Assembly: GCA_030055595.1 (NCBI GenBank)
Contig: JASFYH010000004.1
Span: forward strand, 20,770 to 84,769
Length of the DNA stretch: 64,000 nucleotides
Origin: Archaeoglobales archaeon
GTDB taxonomy: Archaea; Halobacteriota; Archaeoglobi; Archaeoglobales; Archaeoglobaceae
Reading direction: 5' to 3'
Shown here: piece by piece, positions 3,552 through 63,889 of the stretch
Numbering within the stretch: position 1 is the first letter of the stretch
Layout: every line of letters starts with the position of its first letter
Position numbers and translations under genes: made by a program
The notes under the pieces: generated by a model
The model's database searches: none
Seen by the model: only the letters and a program-made list of their open reading frames with translations
What the model was told of the DNA's origin: nothing

Positions 3552-6500
3552 ATGGATGCTACCCTCGACAAGTTTTTCCCTCTTTACGACAAAGAGCCAG
3601 ATAACGATTATTGTGCTGTTGAAAGCATAAAGGAATACCACAAAATGTTAAGCGAGAAACTTGAAGAAGCCTATAAGATCGCTGAGATTGCAAGAGCCAA
3701 AGCTCTTGATCCTGAGCCAAAAGTCGAGATTTTAATTGCAAAAGACATGGCTGAGAGAGTTGAGAAGCTAATAGGGCTTAATGGTGTTTCTAAAAGAATC
3801 AAGGAGCTTGAAGAAGGGGGAATGGAAAGGGACAAGATCTGCTTTAGGATCTCTGATGAGATCGTCGAGGGAAAATTTGGTAAAATGGACTATTTAGAGG
3901 CAATAGATAAAGCCATAAGGACTGCTGTTGCTATAATGACTGAAGGAGTCGTTGCTGCACCAATTGAAGGGATTGCAAAGGTTTCAATTGACAAAAACAA
4001 CGATGGGAGCAATTTTTTGAAGGTTTACTACGCTGGACCAATAAGAAGCGCTGGAGGGACTGCACAGGTAATTTCTGTTCTTATCGCAGACTACGTTCGC
4101 AGGAAAGTTGGCTTAGGAAGATACATTCCAACTGAAGAGGAGATCCTCAGGTATTGCGAGGAGATCCAGCTTTACAAAAAGGTTGCCAATTTGCAGTATC
4201 TGCCGAGCGATGACGAAATTAGGCTGATCGTCTCTAACTGCCCGATCTGCATAGATGGTGAGCCTACCGAAGATGCGGAAGTTTCAGGCTACAGAAATCT
4301 GCCGAGAGTTGAAACAAACAGAGTCAGGGGAGGGATGGCTTTAATAATAGCGGAAGGAATAGCCCTGAAAGCTCCGAAGCTCAAGAAGATGGTTGATGCA
4401 CTGAAGATCGATGGCTGGGAGTGGCTTGATAAGCTGATCAAGAAAGATACTGAGGAGGAAATCGATGTGAAGCCTCGAAGTAAGTATTTGTCAGATCTTG
4501 TTGCAGGAAGACCTGTATTGAGTCATCCTTCTAGAAAGGGTGGCTTTAGGTTAAGATATGGCAGAGCAAGAAACTCTGGTTTGGCAACAGTAGGAATCAA
4601 TCCCGCAACTATGGTCTTAATCGACTTCGTAGCCATAGGAACTCAGTTGAAAATTGAAAGACCGGGTAAAGCGGGGGCGGTTGTGCCGGTAACTACGATC
4701 GAAGGCCCTACTGTAAGGCTGAAAAATGGAGACGTTGTTAAGATACGCAGTGTCAAAGAAGCACTTGAATTGAAGAATGAAGTTGATAAGATCCTCGATC
4801 TCGGTGAGATCCTCATAAACTATGGCGACTTTCTTGAAAACAATCACCCGCTCATTCCCGCTTCTTATTGCAAAGAATGGTGGACTCTTGAAACTGGGAT
4901 CAAAGATCAGCAGATCGATGAGGAGACCGCATTAAAGTTTTCCGACGAATTTGGGGTTCCAATGCATCCCGATTTCACTTATCTCTGGCACGATATCAGC
5001 ATTGAGGACTTTTGCTATCTCAGAGATTTCATAAGCTCACGTGGAAAAATTGAAGGGCAGAGAAAGAGCTGTCTCTTTTTGCCATTCGATAAAAGAGCTA
5101 AGGAGATCCTCGAGAATTTGATCGTTGAGCACAAGGTGAGGGAGGGAATTGTCATTGAGAAATGGAAAGTTCTCGTGAGATGCCTTGGACTTGATTTCAA
5201 GCTGAGAAAACTGGGTGAGGTTCAGGGAGAAAACGTAATTGAAGCAATAAAGAACGTCTCAGGAATAACAGTTCGCATGAAGGCTCCTTCAAGGATTGGA
5301 GCAAGAATGGGGCGTCCTGAGAAGGCTAAGGAAAGGAAGATGAGCCCTCCGCCACACTTGCTATTTCCCGTTAGCTTTGCTGGGGGAAAAAGAAGAGATG
5401 TAAAAAGTGCTCTGGATCACAAAAACGGCTATAATTCTGCAAAAGGTTTGATAGAGGTCGAAGTAGCCTTAAGAAGGTGCAAAGTTTGTGGTAAAGAGAC
5501 TTTTTGGCTCAAATGCGAATGTGGTGGTGAAACAGAGCAGATCTACTACTGTCCAAAGTGCAGAATTAAAAGCGAGTCTGAGTTTTGCAAAAAGTGCGGA
5601 AGCGAGGCAAGAGGATACATGAAAAGGACTGTTGATATAAAGGCTCTCTACGACAATGCAATAAAAAATCTCGGCGAGCACGATGATCTTGAAATAGTTA
5701 AGGGCGTAATAGGGCTTACTTCTAAAAATAAAGTTCCAGAGAGAGTTGAAAAGGGGATCTTAAGGGCAAAACATGGCGTTTATGTCTTCAAAGACGGGAC
5801 GATCAGATACGACATGACAGATCTGCCCTTGACACACTTCAAACCCAAAGAGGTAGGTGTGAGCGTTGAGAAGCTAAGGGAGCTGGGGTATACGAGAGAC
5901 TACTTGGGTGTTGAACTTAAAAACGAGGATCAGATCTTAGAGTTGAAGCCACAGGATATAGTCATCTCGAAATACTGCGCGGAATACCTTGTAAAGGTGG
6001 CAAAGTTCATTGACGATCTTCTGGCTAAGTTCTACAAGCTTGAGCCATTCTACAATATAGAAAAGCCAGAAGACCTTATAGGGCACTTGGTTATTGGCTT
6101 GGCTCCACATACTTCTGCGGGAGTCCTTGGAAGGATCATCGGTTTCGCAGATATTTTGGGTGGTTATGCTCATCCATACTTCCATGCAGCAAAGCGAAGA
6201 AATTGCGATGGCGACGAAGATTGCGTGATGCTCCTACTTGATGGTTTGTTAAACTTTTCAAGGCATTTCCTGCCAGAAAAGCGTGGGGGACAGATGGATG
6301 CTCCTCTTGTGCTTACAGTGATCGTTGATCCAAGGGAAGTCGATAAAGAAGTCCACAACATGGACGTTGTTTCTCACTATCCATTGGAGTTTTATAAGGC
6401 AACACTTGAGTTCGCAAATCCAAAGGAGTGTGAAGATCTTATAGAAAAAGTCAAGGATCGACTAAGCTCAGAAACAAGATTCTGCACACTCAAATTTACG

Positions 6501-60457: not shown

Positions 60458-61330
60458 ATGGCTATCAAGATCCTAATAAAGGGCAAAGTTCACGGAGTTG
60501 GCTACAGGGTAAAGCTCATAAATATGGCTTTAGAATACGGAATCGACAGATTTGCAGTCTTTAACACATTTACGAATGGAAAGGAAGCGGTCATGATTTT
60601 GGTTGACGCTCCTGAAGAAATTTTAGAGCTTTTAAAGGAAAGAATAAAGGCTGAAAAGCCTGAAAAGGCAATTGTTGAGTCCGTAGAATTTCTGGAATGT
60701 CGCTTTAGCGTTCCGCCGATCGAGAGAAGTATGCAGGCATTTCAGATCGAGCACTGGGGCAAGGCAATCCCAATAATGCTCAACATGCTCGAAAAACAGG
60801 ATCTAATGCTTGAAAAACAGGATCTGATGCTTGAGAAGCAAGACAAGATGCTCGAAAAGCAGGATCTGATGCTTGAAAAACAAGACAAAATGCTTGAAAA
60901 AATGGATGTGATGCTTGAAAAGCAAGACAAGATGCTTGAAAAGCAGGATCTGATGCTTGAGAAGCAGGACAAGATGCTTGAAAAAATGGATGTGATGCTT
61001 GAAAAACAGGATCTAATGCTTGAGAAACAGGATCTGATGCTTGAGAAGCAAGACAAGATGCTCGAAAAGCAGGATCTGATGCTCGAAAAGCAGGACAAAA
61101 TGCTTGAAAAACAGGATCTGGTGATCAACAAGCTTGATGAGACGAAACAAGAGCTTGGGAGTAAGATCGATCAAACAAGGGAAGATCTCGCTGAACGACT
61201 TGACGAAACAAATGCCAAGCTTGAGCTTCTCCGCTCAGATCTCAGAGATTACCTTGAAAAAAACATGAAAGAGCTGAATGCAAGGATCTTAAGGATCGAA
61301 GAGGCTTTGAGGAAAGCGGGGCTGATGTAA
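60458..61330 (+). CDS. Acylphosphatase-like domain fused to 16 MLEKQD(L/K/V) heptads and C-terminal coiled coil
   Basis: N-terminal IKGKVHGVGYRV...VFNTFTNGKEAV acylphosphatase signature (Arg and Asn retained), then heptads, then KLDETKQELGSKIDQTREDLAERLDETNAKLELLRSDL. Confidence 0.8.
   Translation: MAIKILIKGKVHGVGYRVKLINMALEYGIDRFAVFNTFTNGKEAVMILVDAPEEILELLKERIKAEKPEKAIVESVEFLECRFSVPPIERSMQAFQIEHWGKAIPIMLNMLEKQDLMLEKQDLMLEKQDKMLEKQDLMLEKQDKMLEKMDVMLEKQDKMLEKQDLMLEKQDKMLEKMDVMLEKQDLMLEKQDLMLEKQDKMLEKQDLMLEKQDKMLEKQDLVINKLDETKQELGSKIDQTREDLAERLDETNAKLELLRSDLRDYLEKNMKELNARILRIEEALRKAGLM
60785..61120 (+). repeat. 16 in-frame tandem 21-bp repeats (MLEK[QM]D[LKV])
   Basis: Counted by hand; 16 x 21 = 336 bp, consensus atgcttgaaaaacaggatctg. 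Confidence 0.95.
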
Positions 61331-62038: not shown

Positions 62039-63547
62039 ATGCCTCGACTCTTAATTCTCGTATTCTTAGTTCTTTCGATTTTCCTTAGCAATCACATTTA
62101 TCTCAACGACGAAATGCTCGTGATCTTGCAAGTGCAAAGCATCGAATCAGGTTTTGCCATTGAGATCGAAAAACTCCTCGCTTACGTTGGCACGCCTTGG
62201 TTCGAATTCAATGGCGAGAAATACGCACCATTCAGCTACCTTTTGCCGATCTTAGCCTTTCCGATTTACAAGGCTCTTCTGTTCCTCAACAGCTTTGGTT
62301 ATCCAGACTTGATTCTGGCTCTAATTGCTCCAGCGGGATTTCTTTTGCTCGCAATTCAACACAGAAAATACGTTCTCCTGGCAATCGCTTTTTTCCTTGC
62401 AACGCTTTTGCTATTCAAGCCAATTTACAGATTCGAGGACTGGGCGGGAATTTACGCTTTAAAGCTAACAAACGTTTTCGCAATTGCAATCACCGCTGAG
62501 ATCCTTTACAGAATGCTAAAAGAGAGATTTGAAGATAAATTTGCGATCTCCGCAGTTTTTGCGTTTGTCTTCGCAACCCCCGTTGCTTACTGGACTCTTT
62601 CTGCAAAGCTTCATGCGATCTCGCTTATGCTAACCGCTTCATCTTTTTACTTCCTTGATAGATCTTTAAGACTTGAAAATACAAAAGATCTGCTCCTCGC
62701 ATCAGCGATCGCTGGACTCTGTTTCTTTTCAAGGGCAATTGATGGGGCGATCTTGTGTTTTTCCATTCTTCTCTTTCTATTCATTTTCAAAAGATCAAAG
62801 CTGATCCATGCAATTTCAGGCATTGCATTGGGTTATTTGCCATGTGCGATCTTTGGCTTTGCGATCTTCAACCTTCCCCTGCCTATTGAGATCATTGGAA
62901 ACAGATTCTCGAATGTCAGCTACATTGAAGCTTCAGATCCAGTTGAAACGGTCTCCTTAATTCCCTATGCTTTTGCGGGCATAAAAAACAACACTCTCGG
63001 CATTCTCAGCTACTCCCCAGTCATTGCATTCCTCATTCCTCCCGCAATAAAGGCTTTGAAGGCAAAGAAATTCAGCTTCTCGAACTTTGAAAAATTCCTG
63101 CTTCTTTTCACTATTCTCTGCTTTCTGATCTATCTTCCATTCCTAAGCGATGGCGTTGTCAAAACAGGAGTTCGCGACTACCGATTTTTGCTCCCGATCT
63201 ACATTCCAGTTGCCTATTTTCTTGCAAAGGCTAAATTCGAAATAGAGATTCGCTCACTGCCAATAATCGCTCTCTGCTTTGCAATCCCCGCAATTCCGCT
63301 CGTTTCTCTTTTAAATATCCACGAATTGCTAAGCTTTGCTTATCTTGCAGTCTCTACCGCATTGGCTTTGACTTTCCTTCTCGCGGAGAAATTCAAAAAC
63401 AAAGCAGAGATCCGCTCTTTGTCGATTCTTCCAATCATTTTCATTGTTTCAGACGTCACAAAAGCCTACTTCAGCCCATACGACGTCCACTTTCTCAATC
63501 CACTGCTTGACCGACTCGTTGAGCTTCTGCTCTGGCTTAAAGGATAA
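62039..63547 (+). CDS. Multi-spanning membrane protein, possible GT-C-type glycosyltransferase
   Basis: Many TM segments; first-loop acidic residues (NDEML) and GEKYAPFSYLLPILAFPIYK; family uncertain. Confidence 0.5.
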   Translation: MPRLLILVFLVLSIFLSNHIYLNDEMLVILQVQSIESGFAIEIEKLLAYVGTPWFEFNGEKYAPFSYLLPILAFPIYKALLFLNSFGYPDLILALIAPAGFLLLAIQHRKYVLLAIAFFLATLLLFKPIYRFEDWAGIYALKLTNVFAIAITAEILYRMLKERFEDKFAISAVFAFVFATPVAYWTLSAKLHAISLMLTASSFYFLDRSLRLENTKDLLLASAIAGLCFFSRAIDGAILCFSILLFLFIFKRSKLIHAISGIALGYLPCAIFGFAIFNLPLPIEIIGNRFSNVSYIEASDPVETVSLIPYAFAGIKNNTLGILSYSPVIAFLIPPAIKALKAKKFSFSNFEKFLLLFTILCFLIYLPFLSDGVVKTGVRDYRFLLPIYIPVAYFLAKAKFEIEIRSLPIIALCFAIPAIPLVSLLNIHELLSFAYLAVSTALALTFLLAEKFKNKAEIRSLSILPIIFIVSDVTKAYFSPYDVHFLNPLLDRLVELLLWLKG

Positions 63548-63585: not shown

Positions 63586-63606
63586 ATCTCCTTAGTCTAA
63601 GGAGAT
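63586..63606. repeat. 21-bp inverted repeat ATCTCCTTAG-T-CTAAGGAGAT
   Basis: 10-bp perfect arms around one central base, 39 bp after the upstream stop codon. Confidence 0.85.
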
Positions 63607-63728
63607 AAATCGGATTTTGGCGAATTGGAAATCCGAGCTAAAATATTGTTTAAAGTTAAAATTCTCTAAATTGAACAAACTACTCCTCCATTTTTGCTAA
63701 ATTGAATTGGTGGAGCTAAAAAGAAAAC

Positions 63729-63790
63729 GCGTGCTGTGCTACATGCGTATGCAAGCGTAAGCTTGCTACGCTGTATGCACATGCGAACGC
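63729..63790. other. 62-nt bulged hairpin with GTAA tetraloop
   Basis: 26 Watson-Crick pairs by hand: GCGT/ACGC, GC/GC, TGTGC/GCACA, TACA/TGTA, GCGTA/TACGC, GCAAGC/GCTTGC; bulges T44, T50, T76, T82 and GA85-86 (last two digits of 637xx). Confidence 0.85.
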
Positions 63791-63889
63791 CAATTTTTGA
63801 TTTTTTAAGTGATCTCAAGTTGAAATCTTTGAAGTTTTAGCCAATAAACCAATCGAAACCTATTTCTATTCTTAAAGCAAGCTAAATCT

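Follow-up and report, generated by a model that had tools for sequence, protein, structure and literature searches.

Tandem clusters of DUF104/COG2880 and PIN genes are on record from Archaeoglobus fulgidus, and passages of the report that describes them already note tandem duplication (PMC2701414). Short palindromic repeats are likewise known, those of the REP type having GTAG and CGTC tags as hallmarks (PMC3733652), and integron cassette arrays with their attC sites extend to archaea (PMC9668308). In this work, we analyzed a hairpin at one end of a 64-kb stretch of DNA (hereafter the window) from a 1.55-Mb archaeal genome. The hairpin is a real, conserved, structured repeat; it belongs to a small archaeal family and is associated with a toxin–antitoxin array that undergoes shuffling, and its kind, the short palindromic repeat, is already known.

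The 62-nt segment (63729–63790) folds as RNA into (((((((((((((((.(((((.((((((....))))))))))))))).))))).))..)))), with bulged U16 and U22 in the 5' arm, U48 and U54 in the 3' arm, GA at 57–58, and a GUAA loop. A preliminary description of this DNA had counted 26 pairs, with two T bulges on each arm, one bulged GA, and GTAA as the loop, and refolding reproduced all of this exactly. Against shuffled controls, the comparison named in the same description, the plus-strand RNA reached -34.6 kcal/mol for a shuffle mean of -23.2 ± 2.6 (z -4.31), and 0 of 200 shuffles were as good; the minus strand gave -33.7 (z -5.2) and DNA parameters gave -21.6 (z -4.3). In a scan of both strands of the window (64-nt segments, step 6 nt), the hairpin ranked first for stability (-35.4), about 6 kcal/mol ahead of the runners-up (-29.5, and a tRNA at -29.2). 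The GC enrichment noted earlier is also real (55% in the hairpin vs 42% in the whole window), as are the lack of a coding explanation and the adjoining toxin–antitoxin locus. Rfam contained no family matching the hairpin, even at E values up to 1.

Table 1 Position of the hairpin and of the features around it in the window.
Feature	Position	Strand	Remarks
PMT_2-type glycosyltransferase gene	62039..63547	+	Upstream; the hairpin lies in sense, 181 nt past its stop codon
5' foot CGCGTGC	63728..63734	+	Also found in the short sister elements of the arrays
Long-type bulged hairpin	63729..63790	+	26 bp, four single-T bulges, GA bulge, GTAA loop
3' foot GCGAACGCCAA with GA bulge	63783..63793	+	GCGAACGC is conserved best within the family
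Oligo-T tracts T5 and T6	63794..63806	+	Immediately 3' of the hairpin; probably of archaeal-terminator type
BRE/TATA-like promoter box CGAAACCTATTTCTATT	63854..63870	+	Recurs before the cassettes of the array
AF2212-like (PF01954) antitoxin gene, first 37 codons	63890..64000	+	E 1.4e-17

The window stops at the end of contig C27, inside a toxin–antitoxin array, so that the antitoxin gene is cut there. Since the position of the TATA-like box places the expected start site near the antitoxin ATG, the hairpin would lie about 100 nt upstream of that site, on the 3' side of the upstream unit and outside the message of the downstream cassette. Three more small inverted repeats are found between the glycosyltransferase stop codon and the hairpin (63586-63606, 63611-63635, and 63683-63715): a perfect palindrome ATCTCCTTAGTCTAAGGAGAT, CGGATTT…AAATCCG, and CTCCTCCA…TGGTGGAG. 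Further upstream, the protein encoded by 60458-61330 has an acylphosphatase domain joined to an extended series of near-identical heptad-like repeats (MLEKQDLMLEKQDKM…); comparable acylphosphatase-like proteins are encoded near the array of G008 (L030:1659-2300) and near a decayed cassette of G006 (L034:6970-7611).

Copies of the hairpin, which the preliminary description had proposed to look for and whose absence it had named as one sign against its reading, exist both in the same genome and in others. The long form is represented by six copies in five genomes, two of them in the genome of the window and one each in the congeners G008, G006, G005, and G003. The second copy of the window's genome, at the end of contig C28, is 98% identical over 121 bp with an identical hairpin, and the hairpin of the G008 copy is also identical to that of the window. 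A short sister element of about 52 nt, GCGTGCTAC-GAA-GTG-A-GCAAnnn-loop-nnnTTGC-CAC-GAA-GTAGC-GA-ACGC, stands behind many toxin genes and has the same feet as the long form (GCGTGC…GCGAACGC, with the GA bulge). A model of it retrieved 15 copies in 5 of 18 genomes from two genera, including the complete genome G010 (2,178,400 bp); the window's genome holds 2 long and 3 short copies, all at arrays. The long-form model independently recovers three short elements (35.9, 30.6, and 30.0 bits), and the only match of the short model in the window is the hairpin itself, through its feet, with an E value of 0.18 that is weak by itself; on the strength of these reciprocal matches, both forms are taken as members of one family. 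Among 397 genomes of the phylum, the short model had just one match beyond the family, a doubtful one in G280 (41.5 bits), which we treat as unrelated, as it lies amid other GC-rich palindromes and no toxin–antitoxin gene was recognized alongside. Those palindromes, with GAA-type loops, cluster around L097 4000-4200 in this genome of a distant family.

In intact short copies, the fold is a single hairpin that contains a GAA/GAA internal loop and again the GA bulge (z -4.5 to -6.1). Decayed copies range from z +0.6 to -2.2, and over half of the short copies examined are no more stable, or only slightly more stable, than shuffles. A cruciform of three small C-GNA-G hairpins was considered as the main fold and rejected, given that the RNA and DNA minimum-energy folds of intact copies prefer the single long hairpin. 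In an alignment of six short copies, 93% of the cells of the helix are paired, compared with 28–39% for slid controls. At four pairs, both partners have changed; the count of doubly changed cells and the covariation score beat all 500 shuffles, although the number of doubly changed pairs alone does not exceed shuffles (83/500). One such compensatory change is AATCC/GGATT in the window's genome vs AACTC/GAGTT behind the same toxin in G006. The long form is without compensatory changes: substitutions in G006 and a deletion in G003 break pairs, and its GTAA tetraloop is not conserved (GATA in G005, GAAA in G003).

Most copies border cassettes made of an AF2212-like antitoxin (PF01954) followed by a PIN-domain toxin (PF01850), the VapBC-type order, which is repeated along the arrays. 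About five cassettes form each array in G006 (L029:6134-9841) and G008 (L030:6171-9809), G010 has a similar array (L053), and that of the window's genome is split over contigs C27, C28, C2, and C7. Between cassettes, the toxin cores show a median amino acid identity of 29% and the last 38 residues 92%, whereas for the antitoxins it is the first 20 residues that are alike (90%) and the rest that differ (31%). Orthologous cores are 96–98% identical at the nucleotide level between genomes, compared with only 85–93% for their own end segments. Because these ends are less identical than the cores to which they are attached, the end segments have been exchanged between cassettes, making the arrays mosaic. 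The constant stretch that runs from the toxin end through the hairpin and promoter to the antitoxin start would be a natural place for such homologous exchange.

The similarity of the hairpin between genomes is also greater than vertical descent would give, since a housekeeping stretch of the window is less identical between the same genomes (best matches of 80–88% in G008, 77% in G005, 69–73% in G006, 72% in G003, and 67% in G010). In G006 and G008, the spacers around the hairpin are 90–97% conserved, about as much as the hairpin, vs a background of 69–88%. We therefore rejected this conservation as a sign of selection on the long hairpin; instead of selection acting on the hairpin alone, it indicates that the locus as a whole was exchanged. 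A truncated second 3' remnant of the window's glycosyltransferase gene adjoins the arrays of G008 (L030, about 5295-5730) and G006 (L029, about 5590-5700), which suggests that the whole locus may have been exchanged between species.

The position and orientation of the copies bear on what the element might do. Eleven of them (ten short, one long) lie 2–51 nt past the stop codon of a PIN toxin, on the same strand, the long one being the G005 copy, which starts 13 nt past that codon. All six long copies are followed by an oligo-T tract (T>=5 within 40 nt), even those of G005 and G003, which have flanks with no relation to the window's; across the whole family, the proportion is 10 of 21 copies vs a background of 20%. 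Among the non-Watson–Crick cells read on the plus strand, G·U outnumbers A·C (17 vs 5), the cells not being independent. A scan for bacterial-type terminators found none at the hairpin. Other copies are placed differently: one in G010 (position 266445) is solo, away from any array, and another (287361) precedes the first cassette and has a gene on the other strand upstream. In G005, a short element on contig C136 (L074:1771-1810) overlaps the stop codon of a non-toxin PDDEXK_10/DUF3782 gene, with a cassette about 1.2 kb away. Many cassettes of the same family lack the element, which is thus dispensable for toxin–antitoxin function.

Of the explanations considered, we tentatively favor a cassette-boundary repeat that acts as a 3' stem-loop or terminator and is spread by recombination with the arrays, while rating it somewhat short of probable. 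The hairpin would be a long-armed member of a small repeat family bordering the antitoxin and PIN toxin units of recombining arrays in the heat-loving Archaeoglobaceae, its copies having spread mainly with these arrays through recombination at the conserved cassette ends and horizontal exchange. Transcription would cover its plus strand at the 3' end of the gene before it, usually a toxin but here the glycosyltransferase, and the transcript would fold into the bulged stem-loop followed by oligo-T. Together, these could end or protect the upstream message and insulate it from the promoter of the next cassette. Such a role agrees with the structured-RNA option of the preliminary description, an option consistent with copies that are mostly in sense, with short copies that carry compensatory changes, and with oligo-T downstream of each long copy. 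Counting against this explanation are the element-free cassettes, the decayed short copies, the solo and first-cassette copies of G010, and the uncompensated long form; archaeal termination is also not known to require a hairpin. Alternatively, the element may be an old palindromic repeat that was duplicated and transferred with the arrays and has no present function. The many decayed copies, the cassettes without the element, and the conserved G006/G008 spacers, attributable to whole-locus exchange, speak for this neutral origin; we consider it rather unlikely in view of the compensatory changes and the near-invariant foot GCGAACGC.

A plausible though less likely competitor of the RNA stem-loop is an element working at the DNA level. 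It could be a palindromic repeat of the non-autonomous kind or, at cassette borders, a site of recombination that is folded and resembles attC in action and not in family; a putative mobilizing enzyme would recognize it as a hairpin in single-stranded DNA or as a cruciform. The G005 copy favors it: its stem is 100% identical to the window's, vs 77% for the housekeeping stretch, its loop is GATA for GTAA, both flanks are unrelated, and the homology stops at the feet CGCGTGC…GCGAACGCCAA. That copy sits on a 658-bp metagenome contig, however, and may be misbinned. A piece of about 125 bp with a short element is present or absent at one orthologous site (G006 vs the window and G008), long and short copies follow a different order in G006 and G008, the feet are conserved around a variable middle, and the two exceptional G010 copies fit an element that moves. 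Nevertheless, copies are few (1–5 per genome, vs the tens to hundreds expected of REP), no target-site duplication was seen, and the family has no match in phages, plasmids, or viral contigs. Since the toxin also has no viral relative, a virus or plasmid origin was rejected. The Y1 transposase (Y1_Tnp, PF01797) had 0 matches in the six carriers G000, G003, G005, G006, G008, and G010, some of whose assemblies are incomplete; it occurs in 16 of 55 genomes of the family, none of them a carrier. This null result, the low copy number, and the absence of a GTAG or CGTC tag beside the feet of all six long copies (GCGTGC…GAACGC) leave unsupported the other reading of the preliminary description, an IS200/IS605 end or a REP of the bacterial type, while its repeat or structured RNA remains viable. 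The bulged palindrome with several intergenic copies would suit such an end, as would the decayed TnpB/Cas12f-like gene (PF07282) at the end of the G006 array (L029:10360-11158, minus strand), in a genome with no detected Y1 transposase. We reject this identity as extremely improbable, the copies being in addition linked to toxin–antitoxin cassettes. Also improbable is that the arrays form an integron-like cassette system lacking a classical integron, in which a putative recombinase would use the hairpin sites to insert, excise, and reorder cassettes and thus swap toxin specificity cores, leaving the promoter, the start of the antitoxin, and the end of the toxin unchanged. The anatomy resembles attC (a foldable bulged hairpin with a conserved foot and a variable tip at a cassette 3' end, though not of every cassette). 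The attC core sites RYYYAAC … GTTRRRY were absent by eye from both strands of 63720–63800, which led us to reject attC membership, and inspection by eye of the reading frames listed next to the arrays revealed no recognizable integron integrase. On balance, the RNA reading is slightly ahead of the DNA reading.

A structured repeat tied to an array with constant cassette ends and swapped, unrelated cores provides a concrete case in which specificity shuffling in archaea can be tested. Should the hairpins be 3' RNA elements, they would show how neighboring toxin genes stay transcriptionally apart; if they are exchange sites, they would define a cassette system without a known integrase.

Compared with known systems, the element has several partial counterparts. 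As in stem-loop plus oligo-T terminators, a hairpin past a stop codon is followed by T5 and T6, but at 62 nt with bulges it is far longer than needed and is missing from many cassettes, and archaeal termination relies on the oligo-T. With the REP and REP-like palindromes of the GTAG and CGTC super-families it shares short, bulged, intergenic sequences, intact and decayed, often just 3' of genes; in contrast to them, it has neither tag nor RAYT/Y1 transposase and occurs in just two archaeal genera, where nearly all copies are at toxin–antitoxin arrays. Integron attC/cassette arrays, including those of archaeal integrons, are similar in that same-oriented cassettes may terminate in a bulged hairpin whose foot is conserved and whose tip varies, in their toxin–antitoxin cargo, and in cassettes that differ between genomes; here, however, each cassette has its own promoter, exchange appears to pass through conserved coding ends, and attC core sites are lacking. 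The A. fulgidus clusters (PMC2701414) contain the same antitoxin and toxin families, also clustered; the searched passages of that report mention neither hairpin repeats nor a mosaic of conserved ends and variable cores, both of which are seen in the present arrays.
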